Assembly: GCF_001548035.1 (NCBI RefSeq)
Contig: NZ_AP014723.1
Span: 1,922,001-1,986,000, forward strand
Source: Sulfurospirillum sp. UCH001
GTDB taxonomy: Bacteria; Campylobacterota; Campylobacteria; Campylobacterales; Sulfurospirillaceae
Direction: 5' to 3'
Length of the DNA stretch: 64,000 nt
Part shown: positions 53,424 through 64,000 of the stretch, piece by piece
How the letters are laid out: each line of letters opens with the position of its first letter
How positions within the stretch are numbered: position 1 is the first letter of the stretch
The notes under the pieces: model-generated
Databases searched by the model: none
Seen by the model: the letters and a program-made list of their open reading frames with translations, nothing else
What the model was told of the DNA's origin: nothing
Translations under genes and position numbers: made by a program

Positions 53424-54031
53424 AACTCCACAAAATTCTTTAAAATAGCCAATCCGTTCGCATGTGACTTCTCTGGATGCGGTTGAAAGCCATACACATT
53501 CGCTTTTTGCACGGCACTAGGAAATTCATAGCCATACATTGTCTTTCCTATCGTATATTTTTCATCACATTTTGCATGAAAACTGTGTACAAAATAAAGA
53601 TAAAAAGACTTTGGCATTCCCTTAAATAATGGTGAATCCTTCGTGATGAAAAGCTCATTCCACCCCATATGAGGAACTTTTAAACGACTTGAAAAACGCG
53701 AAGTATCAAAGTTAACAATCTCTCCCTCAATCAACCCAAGTCCCGCACATTTACCAAATTCAACACTGCTATCAAAAAGAAGTTGCATACCAAGACAAAT
53801 CCCAAGTAAAGGCTTTCCTGAGTTCGCAAACACTTTAACAGCTTCATCCATACCTCGTTCATGCAAACAATCCATAGCATCTTTAAAAGCGCCAACTCCA
53901 GGTAAAATGATCTTATCAAACTTCGATACATCGTTTGCATCTTTGACAATTTCAATGCTAACACCTAGTTTTGCAAAAGCATTCGTAACACTTCTAAGAT
54001 TACCCATATTGTAATCAATCAAACCTATCAT
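53420..54031 (-). CDS. hisH: Imidazole glycerol phosphate synthase glutaminase subunit
   Basis: A 203-residue class I glutamine amidotransferase. The nucleophile cysteine lies in [12 protein letters not shown] and the His/Glu pair in [12 protein letters not shown]. It supplies ammonia to HisF, which must be encoded elsewhere. It overlaps both pglG (4 bases) and hisA (4 bases), so it is translated within the same run. Confidence 0.95.
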
Positions 54032-54933
54032 AAATCTCTCTTTTGTGGTATTGATTTCAGATAAAAAGCTAGACCAAAGAGCAATAATGTAACACCACCA
54101 ATTAGGTAAACTGCATACAGTATGTGCGCTGCATCGATAATTGCAAATTTAAAGACAAGCATCAATGCTTCAATTGCAAGTGCAATGATAATAGAACCTA
54201 AAAATCGCACCATTGTTTTATGCATACCGCCATTATCATCACGTTCATTTCGACCTAAAACTTCTTCTTCAAAAATCGTTTTCACCAGATCAAAAATAGC
54301 CAAAGAGAGCGTAATCAAAATGGTTGATTCAAACATCGCTTTAATATCTAGGAGGTCAAACTGAAGTCCATGCATAAAAAGGCTACGCATGCCATTAAAG
54401 AGCAATAAAAGTGCAATTGCCAATAATGAAAGTGAAAAAATCGTATAAATCACTTGAGAACTTTTGCCAAAAAGAGATTGTAATGATGAAGGATGCGCAA
54501 TTTTTAAAATATGCTCTAATGAGACATCAATACACGCAATAAATCGCAGGACACCTTGCTCATCATATATAGGATAAGAAGCTGTTACCGTTAAATCATT
54601 GGTCAGTGTTGAAGGGTAAGGATCGCTTAATACACAACGTTTTTCACGTACGGCACGATAATAATAGGATTTTCCACTACGATTTTGACCAAGACCACCT
54701 TTACGATGAGGATCATCTGTGATGTTATTGATCAATTGATCACCTTTGTGATCGAGGAGATAAAGTGCTTCAAACTCTTCAACTTCATGAACGATCTTAT
54801 CTAAACTTGAAGAAATAATGTCTATATTGGGTTCAGGCATACGGTTGGGTATATTGCGCGTAAAGAGATAACACAAATACGCCCTTGCCCTTGTTCTTAC
54901 CTCAGCAAACTGCTGAATTTCACGAATAACCAT
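54028..54933 (-). CDS. PglG-like membrane protein with PDC/Cache-type sensor domain
   Basis: A 301-residue protein. Residues about 1-150 resemble a PDC (Cache) ligand-binding domain (SYYYRAVREKRCVLSDPYPS, VTASYPIYDEQG) but without an N-terminal membrane anchor. Four hydrophobic segments follow (about 158-300). The position before cheY, with only hisA and hisH between, and next to pglB matches Cj1119c (PglG), a gene of the N-glycosylation locus with no assigned reaction. Sensing a small molecule is plausible; the role is unknown. Confidence 0.65.
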   Translation of the reverse strand: MVIREIQQFAEVRTRARAYLCYLFTRNIPNRMPEPNIDIISSSLDKIVHEVEEFEALYLLDHKGDQLINNITDDPHRKGGLGQNRSGKSYYYRAVREKRCVLSDPYPSTLTNDLTVTASYPIYDEQGVLRFIACIDVSLEHILKIAHPSSLQSLFGKSSQVIYTIFSLSLLAIALLLLFNGMRSLFMHGLQFDLLDIKAMFESTILITLSLAIFDLVKTIFEEEVLGRNERDDNGGMHKTMVRFLGSIIIALAIEALMLVFKFAIIDAAHILYAVYLIGGVTLLLFGLAFYLKSIPQKRDL

Positions 54934-54962: not shown

Positions 54963-57116
54963 CTAAATTTTGAGCCGATATACTTTAGCATATGCCTCTA
55001 AACTCATCGGTTCAAAAAATCGTTCATCATAATTTTCTAAAACGAAAAGTTGAATATACGTCGAATTTAACATATCTTCATCAAGAATCAAAAACGTATT
55101 ATACGCTTGCATATAAATAATCGAAAAAAGTCCATTAGGATGAATCGTGTTTTGTTCTTTTATCAATTTAAAATTAGAAGTATATGCCGTTTGAATAAAG
55201 TTCTTTACAGGGATTTCTTGATTGCCAAGCTTGAGCATTCCTTTTGCTTTATCAAGCACAACTCCACTACCAAAATTAAGCGTCGTACCCATATCTTTAA
55301 ATTGCATTGATTGAAAGAAAAATGGCTGACGAACGGTTTTGCCATTCATGATATCAATATTACTAAATTGCGCTACCGTAGGGAAAATACTCATCATACG
55401 ATAAGGCAGATAAAAATAAATGTCACGTGTTTTTTCTGGTAATGAAAGTGGCGTTTGAAGAGCTGCTAAAAAATCATTAGCATCTTTAAATCCATAATCC
55501 AAAGTCATTTGTGCTGTGTTATTTATGATTTTAACCTGTTGACTTTTAGGTTTCGTCTCATTTTCTTCTGCTGTCACAAATGCTTTTTCTGTATATTCAA
55601 TCTCAAGCCTTGCTAAACGTGCAGCACTCTCTTGAGGGTTTGTTAGCATATAACTGACAGGAAAATTAACGTCCCCATTATGTTTACCACCGTCAATTAA
55701 AGTTTTAACATCTGCATAATAACGAAGAGGATAACCATAATCCCACCATGCGACAATATAATCTTCTCTATCAACGAGATTTTTTAACCTATCCAACTGT
55801 TCTACTTCTGCTTTATTAAATACTGTTGGTACTCGATATTCAATTACATGTAAAATGTTAGGATATAAAATACCTAAACTTGCACCAACAACAAAACATG
55901 ATTTAATAATATGACCAAGCTTTTCATTAGCAAAGAGCTGAGTGATATAATTGCTCCAAACAAAGAGCAAATAAGCAACGCCTAAAGCACATACAGGTAC
56001 TGCATAAATTGTAAAACGAAGCCCTCCCCAAAGTGCTAAAAAGCCAAGTCCTAAAAGTGGTAAGCCTAAAAGCATTACAGGATATTTTTTGACTAATAAA
56101 ACATACCCTATAAGAGAAAGTACCAAGGTAATGGTGTGTCCACTAATCCGCTCTGCAAATGTTACAAAATCAATCTGCCCTGCTTCACGTACTGTTTGGA
56201 TGACTGAGAAAAAATGTAAAGGTAAAACATCTGAACTTACTTCAATAGCATCTTTAAATACATACAGCTTTAATCTCATCCAAATAGGTTCTAGACCGCC
56301 AAAAACGATAAATAACACTACTGAGACACCTAAAATATACCAAATAAAGCGATGCCAATCTCTTTTTTTAAACACAAAATATGCACTTATCACAAGTAAT
56401 AAACGTATCCAAGTTGGTAACCCCATCATTGCCAAAAGCATAATCGTTATGAGTTGAAAATTGAAACTCTTTTTACGATCACAAATGAGTGTGAACAAAA
56501 GGACAAGTCCTAAAAAAGAGAATTCTAAAGAATAACTTTGTGGGTACCACCAACGATATATAATAATTTCTAATGCTGTAATTAAAAGATATTTTTCTTC
56601 TTGAGTACGTAATGCTAACATGAGTGACCATAAGAGAAAACTAGGAAGAACAATATTTAGCATGTCAGTATCATAATAACCTATCATTGTTCGATTATAA
56701 TAACTGACCGCAATAGAAGCAAGGAGTGATGCTAAAAACCCTACTTCTATCATTTTCAGATTATGGGCAATGAAAATAATAGGTACAACAATAAATGACC
56801 CTAGAACTGCAGGCATATATAATATGATTGTTTCAAAAGAAAAAGGCAATAACTTCACAGCAAGATACGTTAGTAAAGATGCCGCTTCATTGAATGGTGA
56901 AAGAGAATGCTTCTGCGAAACACCATACAACAGATCTCTTGCGCCTTCTGCCCAAAAGTAACCATCATTAGTATTAATCATGAATTGACCAGCAAATTTA
57001 AAACTTTCAATATCACTAAGTTGATAAATCCATATGAATCGAACTGCTATACTAAATGCGAAAGCAGTTAATGTTGTAAATATAAGAATGAAAAATTTCG
57101 CATCTATTTTATGCAT
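54963..57116 (-). CDS. pglB: PglB/STT3-type oligosaccharyltransferase
   Basis: A 717-residue membrane enzyme with about 13 helices and a C-terminal periplasmic domain. It carries the catalytic WWDYGYPLRYY motif (about residue 455), DGGKH, and the DxD-type NTNDGYFWAEGARD stretch near residue 50. It transfers a lipid-linked glycan to asparagine in D/E-x-N-x-S/T sequons in the periplasm. The gene overlaps the Wzz-like gene by 8 bases, which in Campylobacter is not a pgl neighbour. Confidence 0.93.
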   Translation of the reverse strand: MHKIDAKFFILIFTTLTAFAFSIAVRFIWIYQLSDIESFKFAGQFMINTNDGYFWAEGARDLLYGVSQKHSLSPFNEAASLLTYLAVKLLPFSFETIILYMPAVLGSFIVVPIIFIAHNLKMIEVGFLASLLASIAVSYYNRTMIGYYDTDMLNIVLPSFLLWSLMLALRTQEEKYLLITALEIIIYRWWYPQSYSLEFSFLGLVLLFTLICDRKKSFNFQLITIMLLAMMGLPTWIRLLLVISAYFVFKKRDWHRFIWYILGVSVVLFIVFGGLEPIWMRLKLYVFKDAIEVSSDVLPLHFFSVIQTVREAGQIDFVTFAERISGHTITLVLSLIGYVLLVKKYPVMLLGLPLLGLGFLALWGGLRFTIYAVPVCALGVAYLLFVWSNYITQLFANEKLGHIIKSCFVVGASLGILYPNILHVIEYRVPTVFNKAEVEQLDRLKNLVDREDYIVAWWDYGYPLRYYADVKTLIDGGKHNGDVNFPVSYMLTNPQESAARLARLEIEYTEKAFVTAEENETKPKSQQVKIINNTAQMTLDYGFKDANDFLAALQTPLSLPEKTRDIYFYLPYRMMSIFPTVAQFSNIDIMNGKTVRQPFFFQSMQFKDMGTTLNFGSGVVLDKAKGMLKLGNQEIPVKNFIQTAYTSNFKLIKEQNTIHPNGLFSIIYMQAYNTFLILDEDMLNSTYIQLFVLENYDERFFEPMSLEAYAKVYRLKI

Positions 57117-58005
57117 GAGTATCTTTGCACATAAATTCTAAAACTAAAGCTATAAAAATAGATAATACAAACCCTATCATAAAACTAGTAGAAATAATTA
57201 ACATTTTTTTAGGTAAAATAGGATTACTATTAGAATTAATATTATCAATAAGCTCTGTCATTTTTAAATTTTTTGAGGAGATATCTAATTTTAAATCATT
57301 CAACTGATTATTAATATTATAAATACTGTCTTTCACATTTTTTAGTTCTACTGTATTATTATTAATTTCTATTAAATAGACCCCAGCTAATGTAGGATTA
57401 TTTTGAATCAATTTTTCAATATAGCTTGATTTTTTATTTAATTCTTGCACTAAACGCTCTTTTTCAAGCAATAATTCTTCTTTTTGAGCATTTAAATTAT
57501 TCATTTTTAAGCTTATAGAATCAACATAAGTATCTATTAATTTTTGATGCTTAGTACTAATACTTCTTTCTATTTCTTTCAAATATGTGCTTGCTAATTC
57601 TGGACTGAATCCCAAAGTTGATATTTCTAAAAGATTTTGAGTACCTTTTACAAAAGAAACTTTATCTAGCCAAACTCTTTTCTCTGTATTCTTGTTCTCT
57701 AAATATCTCATTTCTAATCTTTTTAAGACTGTATTAGGATTCTCAATCCAAGAATTAGAATTAGAATTAGAATTAGAATTAGAATTAGAATTAGAATTAG
57801 AATTAGAATTAGAATTAGAATATGATCCTATTTCTAAAACTGCTTTTGCTTCGTATATAGGCGTTTGCATAAAAACATATATTATTGCAATTAAAGTTAT
57901 CAACCCCGTCAAAAGAATAATCATTGTTTTAAATTTTAAGAGTGTTTTCCATAATATCTTTAAATCTATTTCTTCTTCATATGGTATTTCGACTTGCTTA
58001 TTCAT
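57109..58005 (-). CDS. Wzz-like polysaccharide chain-length regulator with Ser-Asn repeat
   Basis: A 298-residue inner-membrane protein with the Wzz plan: N-terminal helix (about residues 28-50), periplasmic coiled-coil region (about 140-250) and C-terminal helix (about 268-290). An uninterrupted Ser-Asn dipeptide tract of about 12 pairs lies at about residues 62-85, just after the VYEAKAVLEIGSY strand. It is encoded by the hexanucleotide repeat at 57751-57820. Such proteins set the length of polymerised glycans. It overlaps pglB and follows the PglF-like gene by 9 bases. Confidence 0.82.
   Translation of the reverse strand: MNKQVEIPYEEEIDLKILWKTLLKFKTMIILLTGLITLIAIIYVFMQTPIYEAKAVLEIGSYSNSNSNSNSNSNSNSNSNSNSNSWIENPNTVLKRLEMRYLENKNTEKRVWLDKVSFVKGTQNLLEISTLGFSPELASTYLKEIERSISTKHQKLIDTYVDSISLKMNNLNAQKEELLLEKERLVQELNKKSSYIEKLIQNNPTLAGVYLIEINNNTVELKNVKDSIYNINNQLNDLKLDISSKNLKMTELIDNINSNSNPILPKKMLIISTSFMIGFVLSIFIALVLEFMCKDTHA
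57751..57820. repeat. Perfect hexanucleotide tandem repeat inside the wzz-like gene
   Basis: AGAATT (plus strand) repeated 11 times without error plus a 4-base partial copy. Read on the coding strand as TCTAAT it gives alternating Ser and Asn. Being a multiple of three, gain or loss of units changes protein length but not frame. Confidence 0.95.
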
Positions 58006-58014
58006 ATATTTTTC

Positions 58015-59751
58015 CTAACACTTATTTTGATGATTAAATTCAGGGAGAATCTCTTTTAATTTTGCAAGTTTGTCGTTACAGACAAAAAGTTCCGCAATAT
58101 CGTGTTCTAATTGTTCAATTGCATAATCTGTTTTTCGTGCCACCATAATTGATTCATACAATGTTTTATGATCACTATCATCTAGTAGCAACTCTTCATA
58201 GAGTTTTTCCCCTAGCCTTAACCCTGTAAATTCTATTTTAACATCCATCTTACCAGAAAGCTCAATCATTTTTTTTGCTAAATCAACAATTTTAATAGGT
58301 TTTCCCATATCTAAAATAAAAAGTTCTGCATTCTTACCAATAGCACCTGCTTGTAATACCAATTCACACGCTTCAGGAATTAACATAAAATAACGTGTAA
58401 TCTCTGGATGTGTCACTGTAATCGGGCCACCTTTTTCTATTTGTGCCCTAAATTTTGGGATAACAGATCCACTACTCCCTAAAACATTTCCAAAACGAAC
58501 AGCCATAATTTGAGTGTTTTTTGCATCAACATTTTGTGCATACAATTCGCAAATACGTTTAGTCGCACCCATCACATTTGTTGGGCGAACAGCTTTATCG
58601 GTTGAAATCAAAATAAATTTTGATACGTCATACTTAATTGCTAAATCAATACAAATTTTTGTACCTAAAATATTATTGAGGATACCCTCTTCCATATTGG
58701 ATTCAACAAGTGGAACATGTTTATATGCAGCCGCATGCACAAAAACATCTGGTTGGTACTCTAAAAAAGCTCTTTCCATTGAGGTTTCGTTTAGCACACT
58801 TTGCATAAGAGGTATAAGCTTATCACTTTTTAATTCTTCTACTAATTGATAGAGATTAAATTCGCTATGATCTATTGCTATGATGTATTTAGCTTCATAT
58901 TTTAGACATTGGCGAACAATTTCACTACCGATGCTACCTCCAGCTCCACTGATCATAATTACTTTATTTTTTATAAAAGTTGAAATCGTATTTTTATCCA
59001 AATCTTTAGGATGGCGGGCAAGAAGATCTTCAACAGTGATATTTTTTAATTGTCCAGACAAAAGACTATTCGATAAAATTTTATTTAGAGATGGTAATAT
59101 TTTAATCTCATAAAAATAAGGTCTAAGACGCTCATAAATAAGATTAATTCTTTTAGGGCTTGCCGATGGCATTGCAATAAGTAGTAAATCATACTTATTA
59201 TTTGGACCAATTTTTTCTTTAAGTTGTTTCTTTGAAATAATCCGAATACTATCAATGCTTCTTTTTTGTAGCCTTTGATCATCGTCAACAAAACAAACAA
59301 TTTTATATTGGCTGTTCCTAAATTCCTCTTCAAGTCCTAAACCAGCTTTTCCAGCACCATAAATAACAAGTGTTTTATTTTTTGGTGTCCGACTACGATT
59401 TACCAGTAAATAATAACTATACATACAAAAATTCATTGCAAACAAGTACAAAACAAGCTCAGAAAAAAGAAAATAAAGGAAAAAATGTCCATAATAAAAG
59501 GGTGCATAAAATACAAAAGCAATACTGTAAACAATGCTTTTGAGAATGAATGTCTTCTGCGTTACTTTTGACCAAGAAAGTGAAAAATCTTTAAAAATTA
59601 AAATTGAAGCAAAAATTCTAATTAGAACAACGATAGTGATGATCTGAATATCAAAAGGAATATGAAAAACCCAAAAGCTCCATGAGAAAGTAGTAAATGT
59701 TAAAAAAACAATCACAAAAATATTAAGAATTCTTTTATCAATGACACCCAT
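58015..59751 (-). CDS. PglF/FlaA1-like membrane-bound UDP-sugar 4,6-dehydratase
   Basis: A 578-residue protein with four N-terminal helices, a first CoA-binding-like Rossmann domain (IYGAGKAGLGLEEEF) and a C-terminal short-chain dehydrogenase domain (SGAGGSIGSEIVRQ, STDKAVRPTNVMGATKR with the catalytic Met/Lys). It probably converts UDP-GlcNAc to the 4-keto-6-deoxy sugar, the first step to bacillosamine- or QuiNAc/FucNAc-type residues. It shares one base with the WecA-like gene. Confidence 0.88.
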   Translation of the reverse strand: MGVIDKRILNIFVIVFLTFTTFSWSFWVFHIPFDIQIITIVVLIRIFASILIFKDFSLSWSKVTQKTFILKSIVYSIAFVFYAPFYYGHFFLYFLFSELVLYLFAMNFCMYSYYLLVNRSRTPKNKTLVIYGAGKAGLGLEEEFRNSQYKIVCFVDDDQRLQKRSIDSIRIISKKQLKEKIGPNNKYDLLLIAMPSASPKRINLIYERLRPYFYEIKILPSLNKILSNSLLSGQLKNITVEDLLARHPKDLDKNTISTFIKNKVIMISGAGGSIGSEIVRQCLKYEAKYIIAIDHSEFNLYQLVEELKSDKLIPLMQSVLNETSMERAFLEYQPDVFVHAAAYKHVPLVESNMEEGILNNILGTKICIDLAIKYDVSKFILISTDKAVRPTNVMGATKRICELYAQNVDAKNTQIMAVRFGNVLGSSGSVIPKFRAQIEKGGPITVTHPEITRYFMLIPEACELVLQAGAIGKNAELFILDMGKPIKIVDLAKKMIELSGKMDVKIEFTGLRLGEKLYEELLLDDSDHKTLYESIMVARKTDYAIEQLEHDIAELFVCNDKLAKLKEILPEFNHQNKC

Positions 59752-60722
59752 TATTCAAACTTCTTTCGGCGATCTATCATTTTCGTTACTCCATAAAGAA
59801 TTCCAAGCATCACTATAAAACTTCCTACCAAGGATGCGTTATTTAGGAGTGAACTATACCCTAAAATGGCTAAAACCAGATTGACACCTAGTGCATATAT
59901 AACAACTTTACTATGACTCCAACCACTTTGTACAAGTCGTTGATAAGCATGTTTACGATGGGCATGAGAAAGTTTTTCTTTGTTTTGGTATCTTCTATAA
60001 AGCGTTAGTGTCGCATCAAACCAAAAAATTCCAAATAAAATGAGCCATACAAAGATTGATACTCCATTATTTTGATGATAGATAGCAAATATACCAATAG
60101 AATAGCCTAAAAGTGTACTACCAACATCGCCCATAAAAATCTTTGCTTTATGCCAATTCCAGACCAAAAAACCAAGCACAGAAGATATTAAAACTAAAAA
60201 ATAATCGCCACCAAACAACAACCAGCCAGCCACTGCTAAGAAAATGGCCTCACTTCCAGCATAACCATCAATTCCATCTAAAAAATTGTAGAGATTAATA
60301 AACCACATTAGTCCTAAAAAAGCCAAAACATTTGTAATCCACTGATTTTCAATAACAAAAAAACCAAAATCTATTTTCAATAAACCACCTAAGAGATATA
60401 GTCCTAATAGACTCACTAAAGCTTGAATTAAAAGTCTTATTTTAGGGGATAATTCATAAAGATCATCCAAATAACTTACAAGCGAAAGTAAACTACCACA
60501 TACCAGTGCATTAAATAAAGAACCATCTACCTTATCATATAAAACAAAATAGAGAAGGCCTAAAAACCATGTAAGAGCAATTGCGATACCTCCACCATGT
60601 GGGGTTGAAACAGAATGCGAACTTCGCTCATTGGGTATAGCTAACAGTGATTTTTTGAGCGCTATAAATCTAACACTATATGTCAAAAACAGTGAAAGTA
60701 AAAATAAACCAAAATAAATCAT
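59751..60722 (-). CDS. WecA/WbpL-like undecaprenyl-phosphate sugar-1-phosphate transferase
   Basis: A 323-residue membrane enzyme with about ten helices of the MraY/WecA (GT4) superfamily. Motifs: SSHSVSTPHGGGIAIALTW, YLDDLYELSPKIRLL, YNFLDGIDGYAGSE and KIFMGDVGST. It starts glycan assembly by adding a HexNAc-phosphate to the lipid carrier. Its partner in this run is the short epimerase/reductase just upstream (2-base gap), as in O-antigen clusters with WbpV-WbpL. Confidence 0.9.
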   Translation of the reverse strand: MIYFGLFLLSLFLTYSVRFIALKKSLLAIPNERSSHSVSTPHGGGIAIALTWFLGLLYFVLYDKVDGSLFNALVCGSLLSLVSYLDDLYELSPKIRLLIQALVSLLGLYLLGGLLKIDFGFFVIENQWITNVLAFLGLMWFINLYNFLDGIDGYAGSEAIFLAVAGWLLFGGDYFLVLISSVLGFLVWNWHKAKIFMGDVGSTLLGYSIGIFAIYHQNNGVSIFVWLILFGIFWFDATLTLYRRYQNKEKLSHAHRKHAYQRLVQSGWSHSKVVIYALGVNLVLAILGYSSLLNNASLVGSFIVMLGILYGVTKMIDRRKKFE

Positions 60723-63294: not shown

Positions 63295-64000
63295 TTATTT
63301 TACATTAACAATATTCTTATTAATTTTGTATCTTGTTTTATGAAGTAATGTTGCCATATAAATTCCAACGAAAGGAAACGATAAAGGTATTGCACTAACA
63401 AGTATTGTATTTATAAAAAAAAAATACAATAACCCGCTACCTATTTGATTTTTATAAGCCCTAAAAATTATAATTGTGTAAACAAAAGGTATTGTAAAGC
63501 CTATAAACCCCATTTCAAATAATATAGAACCATAAAAACTCATGATTCTATTTGATTCACTTGTCCACCAAAAGATATTTTGCTTTGGTAGTTCATGATT
63601 TAAATATTGTGAATATATCCCAAATCCATTTGGAAGAAAATTATTGTCAATAAATCCTTTGATTGAAAAATATATAGCAGAAACTCTTTCATTAATACTA
63701 GCATCAAAAATAACAATATTTGATGGGTCATTCAAGAATGCACTAATTAGTTGAAATAATCTTATATTTTGAGGTACAAAATCGATATTGTCTATAAATA
63801 TTAATGTCACGAACATACTAAGACAAAGTAAACCTACTATTTTGATATTCATTTTGAACAAAAAATAATAAAAAGAAAAAATCAATAAAAAGAAAATAGT
63901 CATAGTAGATTGAGCTAAAAAACATATCTGAAACAACAATAAAAAGATATATTTAATTTTATTTTTAATATCTAAAGATATGAATAATAAAATTAAAAAA
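63295..64000 (-). CDS. Wzy/O-antigen ligase-like polytopic membrane protein (5' end outside window)
   Basis: The frame stays open past the right edge; the TTG at 63939 is not a convincing start. The visible 235 codons hold about five hydrophobic helices and one larger periplasmic loop (about residues 75-150 of the visible part, with GFGIYSQYLNHELP). The helix pattern and the late GFGIYSQY loop fit O-antigen polymerases or ligases. The DNA is very AT-rich. Assignment rests on topology and context; no conserved catalytic motif is clear. Confidence 0.6.
   Translation of the reverse strand, partial: FLILLFISLDIKNKIKYIFLLLFQICFLAQSTMTIFFLLIFSFYYFLFKMNIKIVGLLCLSMFVTLIFIDNIDFVPQNIRLFQLISAFLNDPSNIVIFDASINERVSAIYFSIKGFIDNNFLPNGFGIYSQYLNHELPKQNIFWWTSESNRIMSFYGSILFEMGFIGFTIPFVYTIIIFRAYKNQIGSGLLYFFFINTILVSAIPLSFPFVGIYMATLLHKTRYKINKNIVNVK

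Follow-up and report, generated by a model that had tools for sequence, protein, structure and literature searches.

Why a gene predicted to control the length of a surface glycan should carry a long and perfectly pure hexanucleotide repeat within its reading frame is the question raised by a locus of Sulfurospirillum sp. UCH001. The locus lies in the window, that is, the whole 64,000-nucleotide stretch of DNA analyzed here, in which Tandem Repeats Finder (TRF) reported AGAATT x11.8 at positions 57751-57821 (period 6, 100% match, score 142); the next-ranked tandem repeat of the window had a score of 67. A first-pass annotation made from the DNA letters had described 11 perfect AGAATT copies plus a partial one, which the TRF result bears out. 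It had also counted about 12 Ser-Asn pairs; the tract itself stands, with a slightly lower count of 11 pairs plus one Ser, as the in-frame part on the minus strand (57751-57819) reads (TCT AAT)11 TCT and encodes (Ser-Asn)11-Ser at residues 63-85. The claim that slippage would retain the frame holds as well, since the unit is six bases long. The features of the gene that are needed for the argument are as follows.

57109..58005, minus strand: wzz, class-1 polysaccharide co-polymerase, 298 amino acids (Pfam, structural match to WzzB).
57868..57930, minus strand: TM helix 1, residues 26-46 (DSSP on the AlphaFold model; aligned with TM1 of E. coli WzzE and WzzB).
57826..57858, minus strand: beta-1 strand region, residues 50-60, ending at the conserved G60 shortly before the tract (AlphaFold).
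57751..57821, minus strand: AGAATT x11.8 tract, TCTAAT on the coding strand (TRF, translation, codons, AlphaFold pLDDT).
57700..57738, minus strand: helix 3' of the tract, residues 90-102, equivalent to WzzB alpha-2 (AlphaFold, hhalign).
57283..57603, minus strand: helical stalk hairpin, residues 135-241, with helices 135-202 and 204-241 (AlphaFold).
57115..57207, minus strand: TM helix 2, residues 267-297, past P-x-x-P-K-K (alignment, AlphaFold).

The Wzz-like identity proposed in the first-pass annotation was confirmed by Pfam matches to Wzz (PF02706; 2.7e-12, 47.3 bits against a cut-off of 25.5, residues 11-80) and GNVR (1.1e-6), both of which exceed the curated cut-offs. The product has no C-terminal kinase domain by Pfam, and its AlphaFold model (mean pLDDT, 86.5) has the class-1 layout, in which a base domain and an extended helical hairpin lie between two TM helices. 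A proline-rich motif (P262/P265/K266/K267, P-x-x-P-K-K) precedes TM2 and is invariant in the alignment. The top structural match to the model is full-length E. coli WzzB (6rbg; Z 12.8, rmsd 6.3 over 273 residues). Z scores of up to 11.6 were also obtained with unrelated helical hairpins, though over about 80 residues only. In its fold and in the order of its parts (two TMs, base, stalk, P-x-x-P-K-K), the protein thus matches WzzB, WzzE, and FepE. At the position of the UCH001 tract, however, the E. coli proteins WzzB and WzzE carry no repeats but an ordered alpha-1/loop segment.

Where does the tract lie within the protein? Its description as lying beside the first membrane segment was roughly right, in that it starts about 16 residues past TM1, with beta-1 (residues 50-58 in the AlphaFold model) in between. 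Shortly before it stands G60, which is invariant in alignment A1 and conserved at 90% or more in alignment A2. The loop that carries the tract, between beta-1 and alpha-2, is predicted to be disordered, with pLDDT values mostly below 50 over the tract (residues 67-73 and 76-82). In the hhalign alignment, the tract is opposite the WzzB segment QIAGYNNAMNV and the following helix is opposite alpha-2, at a probability of 54% that is weak across the loop; the WzzE alignment ends just ahead of the tract loop. WzzE residues 78-100, between beta-1 and alpha-2, face the lumen, with Wzy located in the membrane lumen below (PMC10030265), and alpha-1 lies along the interior wall, the interior volume matching the chain length for WzzB and FepE (PMC13161533). 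The position of the tract matches this lumen-facing WzzB/WzzE segment, and by alignment the tract of UCH001 Wzz would presumably point into the lumen as well. Since pentapeptide insertions in S. flexneri Wzz alter the modal length (PMC10030265; PMC4574919), it is reasonable to expect an effect of the tract on glycan length.

The DNA of the tract bears the marks of repeat expansion. For a fixed Ser-Asn peptide, the probability of 12 TCT and 11 AAT codons in succession is about 6e-10, given the codon usage of neighboring genes, indicating that the tract grew via expansion of a DNA repeat and not by codon-by-codon assembly. Within 479 kb of the UCH001 genome, comprising the window, 20 spread stretches (400 kb), and one adjoining 15-kb stretch, it is the sole perfect repeat of at least 20 bp (units of 2 to 21), and no other run of at least four AGAATT units was found in the 2.6-Mb single-contig genome. 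A chance origin of the tract is therefore excluded.

The gene lies within a glycan cluster, of which the following members are relevant here.

54963..57116, minus strand: pglB-type oligosaccharyltransferase gene, directly 3' of wzz (Pfam STT3-PglB core, 1.2e-52).
58015..59751, minus strand: pglF/wbpM-like nucleotide-sugar dehydratase gene, directly 5' of wzz (Pfam Polysacc_synt_2, 1.8e-111).
59751..60722, minus strand: WecA/PglC-type initiating sugar-phosphate transferase gene (Glycos_transf_4; Pfam, 1.1e-32).
63295..64000, minus strand: candidate polymerase Wzy, 404 amino acids, running beyond the window end (Wzy_C, E 7e-4, below the cut-off).

A Wzx-type flippase is encoded further upstream, outside the window (L211:5363-6574), so that the cluster has a flippase of this type together with a Wzy candidate whose Wzy_C match is below threshold. 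A pglB-type gene is present near wzz in several lineages (window 54963-58005; L206, L207, L216, L041, and L058), which suggests that the polymer regulated by Wzz might be the glycan that PglB transfers to protein. Just past the window, L211 (chromosome positions 1986001-2001000) holds a glycan cluster with 28% G+C, compared with about 37% in the window, and a NeuB-family gene, which suggests a nonulosonic acid glycan of outside origin. Between hisH and pglB, a membrane protein gene (54028-54933) with a subthreshold dCache match (E 2.2e-8) is 87-97% conserved across congeners.

In contrast to pglB, which was detected in 23 of the 24 genomes of the genus, wzz was detected in only 5, each time between pglF and pglB; in most of the other genus genomes read, pglF abuts pglB or a different WecA-like gene lies in between. 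A comparison of window positions 54963-59751 with the corresponding loci of congeners (L208-L210 and L212) gave identities of 40-58% for wzz (in G009, the best segment reached 32%) versus 67-99% for pglB, pglF, his, and ftsH. The wzz locus thus looks as if it were swapped with the glycan type. Both the patchy presence of wzz and its divergence relative to the more conserved operon neighbors, which is consistent with the tracking of a changing glycan, would be expected if the tract were a flexible spacer that was fitted once to its cognate Wzy or glycan and has since coevolved with it over species time, with no contingency role in populations. Eleven identical DNA units, however, point to a recent and continuing expansion and not to a long-settled spacer, and we regard this explanation as unlikely.

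Repeats recur at the same place in homologues. Searches that included an alignment query of genome contigs yielded 133 distinct Wzz-type open reading frames (ORFs), mostly from Campylobacterota and from the order of UCH001. Perfect in-frame repeats of at least 18 bp are present in the loop of 18 of these ORFs and elsewhere in 2, although the loop makes up only 6.3 kb (5%) of the coding DNA searched, the rest amounting to 122.6 kb. With a threshold of at least 30 bp, there are 15 repeats in the loop and none elsewhere in the 133 ORFs. For comparison, 36 repeats of at least 24 bp were seen across the loci compared, which together make up about 0.96 Mb of distinct DNA, and the number of Wzz loops with such a repeat is 17. 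The beta-1/alpha-2 loop is hence a recurrent repeat hot spot across the phylum. A tract-bearing or Asn-rich-loop Wzz was also seen in L111, a record named Gammaproteobacteria, and in L049, from a Bathymodiolus symbiont; these occurrences suggest horizontal transfer or misbinning.

All 18 loop repeats have units of 3, 6, 9, 15, or 18 bases (TCTAAT, ACTAAT, ACAAAT, GCTAAT, AGCAAC, AGTAAT, AAT, AAC, and 15- and 18-mers), and such unit lengths, all divisible by three, are more in line with graded adjustment than with on/off switching. SSR-driven switching is common among the surface genes of Campylobacterota, and on/off phase variation of Wzz through slippage would be in keeping with this. It also has a precedent in Akkermansia, where a shift from 9G to 10G within the Wzz domain truncates the Wzc-like protein Amuc_1413 (PMC13055324). 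We nevertheless rejected such switching as very improbable, because whole-unit slippage cannot shift the frame where the unit length is a multiple of three, as it is in 18 of 18 loop repeats.

At the protein level, 16 of the 18 loop tracts consist solely of Asn plus Ser, Thr, Ala, or Asn. Depending on the lineage, Ser-Asn is spelled TCTAAT, AGCAAC, or AGTAAT and Thr-Asn is spelled ACTAAT or ACAAAT; the same X-Asn peptide is thus built from different codon pairs, which indicates convergence at the protein level. In loops of 20 or more residues, counted between the anchor columns, Asn accounts for 39% of residues versus 7.5% in the remaining protein, while hydrophobic residues account for 13% versus 39%. 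The purity of the DNA together with the convergence of the protein suggests that slippage supplies the variants and that selection may keep a hydrophilic, Asn-rich chain. A role purely at the DNA or RNA level was set aside, as the DNA units differ and the X-Asn peptide is kept. Given the adjoining PglB-type gene and the abundance of Asn, Ser, and Thr, we also considered whether the tract might be a glycosylation acceptor for PglB. The alternating X-Asn tracts, however, lack N-x-S/T; among the 14 tract-bearing loops on the tree described below, D/E-x-N-x-S/T is found in none and any N-x-S/T in 2. With sequons lacking, this candidate was rejected, and we give it hardly any credence.

How stable are these tracts over time? 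Syntenic orthologues that share an identical codon junction, compared with one genome per species, have Ser-Asn x11.5 in UCH001, (ACT AAT)9.5 in G015, only TNTN in G017, and no tract in G020, so that copy number and unit at the wzz loop differ strongly between related species. The lack of a tract in G020 and the short TNTN of G017 imply that the tract is not essential. Similarly, L013 and L040 are 79% identical, yet one has a 15-base repeat (TTDAK) and the other has none; L052, 71-75% identical to these two, carries Thr-Asn x8. On a tree of 51 proteins built with loop columns excluded, the presence of a repeat needs at least 11 changes, compared with 12.3 when labels are shuffled. There is hence no detectable phylogenetic signal, and turnover is fast.

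This turnover bears on the main rival explanation, namely, that the loop is merely permissive, so that slippage repeats arise and persist in it and its length varies with no consequence for the glycan. Fast turnover without phylogenetic signal, the presence or absence of the repeat among close relatives, and the predicted disorder of the tract are all in line with such neutrality; moreover, AT-rich genomes readily generate AAT-containing repeats, and a tolerant surface loop would yield much of the observed pattern. What argues against it is that the repeats are confined to the beta-1/alpha-2 loop though Wzz has others, that no comparable repeat exists elsewhere in the 479 kb of genome sampled, that X-Asn peptides are built from varied codons, including the GC-richer AGCAAC, and that Asn is enriched about 5-fold. 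We consider neutrality a serious possibility, if not a probable one.

The reading that we prefer, to which we assign a probability of roughly 50%, is that the tract is a slippage-prone, in-frame, Asn-rich flexible Wzz loop at the lumen that grades the modal glycan length. Replication slippage would add or remove whole 6-bp units in wzz, and eight or nine protomers per ring would then place a variable, disordered hydrophilic chain in the lumen above or near Wzy. Gain or loss of units would change the free lumen volume, the contact with Wzy, or both, in small, reversible, frame-preserving steps, and the modal glycan length would shift gradually with unit number, the predicted sign being that a longer tract gives a shorter glycan. 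For the UCH001 tract, we infer the slippage within a population, the lumen orientation, and the effect on chain length; graded tuning of glycan length by the tract is plausible.

A second type of repeat was found in longer Wzz homologues (400-560 amino acids), which have no loop repeat. In several of these, 45-bp in-frame tandem repeats encoding 15 residues are present in the stalk hairpin, in its ascending and descending arms alike (L023 of G054 and L164 of G085; also L062, L070, L079, and L178). L023 and L164 belong to one genus and share 82-92% identity in their non-repeat parts; their copy numbers are five apart in the ascending arm and four apart in the descending arm, and six copies in the descending arm of L023 are identical in DNA. 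The predicted stalk helices of the L062 model have 169 and 142 residues, compared with 68 and 38 in UCH001 Wzz. If the two arms changed together, the hairpin would stay balanced and the ring would become taller or shorter. These stalk repeats are independent evidence that in-frame repeats alter Wzz geometry in Campylobacterota. Loop repeats are present in 0 of 30 long-stalk versus 15 of 59 short-stalk Wzz proteins (Fisher p 0.0018, a value that ignores relatedness), an association kept apart from the main evidence. Tentatively, Campylobacterota Wzz proteins could be viewed as tunable measuring cylinders of two classes. In one, a slippage-prone, Asn-rich lumen loop would be adjusted, a longer tract making a smaller cavity and a shorter glycan; in the other, matched 45-bp stalk-arm repeats would be gained or lost, a taller ring making a longer glycan. 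Changes of both types would be heritable, reversible, and frame preserving; we hold this broader proposal to be possible, short of probable.

Tuning of glycans by in-frame repeats is already known from the same phylum. In H. pylori, the number of O-chain units that become modified depends on the number of heptad repeats in a fucosyltransferase, and the repeats of a beta-1,4-galactosyltransferase have been suggested to influence chain length (PMC3858298). Like the wzz tract, these heptads (DDLRVNY and DELTGKY) are in-frame tandem repeats, and their copy number varies between isolates; however, they are 21-base units in glycosyltransferases, whereas the wzz tract is a 6-base repeat in the disordered loop of a co-polymerase. 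In WbdD of E. coli O9a, a coiled coil acts as a ruler whose length changes the modal chain length (PMC5082667), but this is a different pathway and protein, and its length was altered by engineering (insertions and truncations); natural repeat slippage is not described there. Amuc_1413 resembles the wzz tract in that slippage, some 72 residues from the N terminus, falls within a Wzz domain, but it is a class-2 co-polymerase in which a single-base repeat causes on/off frameshifting. The first-pass annotation knew of no description of a rheostat repeat for Wzz, and we likewise found none in the full texts of open-licence papers, nor any report there of in-frame Wzz repeats recurring at one loop; the Akkermansia on/off case was the one related finding on simple sequence repeats in Wzz. 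It is these recurrent in-frame loop repeats in Wzz that appear to be new.

How Wzz controls length is still argued, with an outer ruler, the inner volume, or timing as the candidates, and within one Wzz family evolution has repeatedly run experiments on both loop length and stalk length. The combined volume of a Ser and an Asn residue is about 200 cubic angstroms. Under the earlier proposal that length is set by lumen volume (PMC13161533), every repeat unit gives a numerical prediction: about 200 times eight protomers would be about 1,600 cubic angstroms, or approximately five hydrated sugars at the value of 300 each from that work, so that each slippage step would amount to roughly one repeat unit. 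Eight copies of the 23-residue tract would take up about half the volume of the WzzB cavity (39,571 cubic angstroms). If true, in-frame repeat tuning of surface glycans would not be limited to glycosyltransferases but would also operate in co-polymerases and in environmental bacteria.
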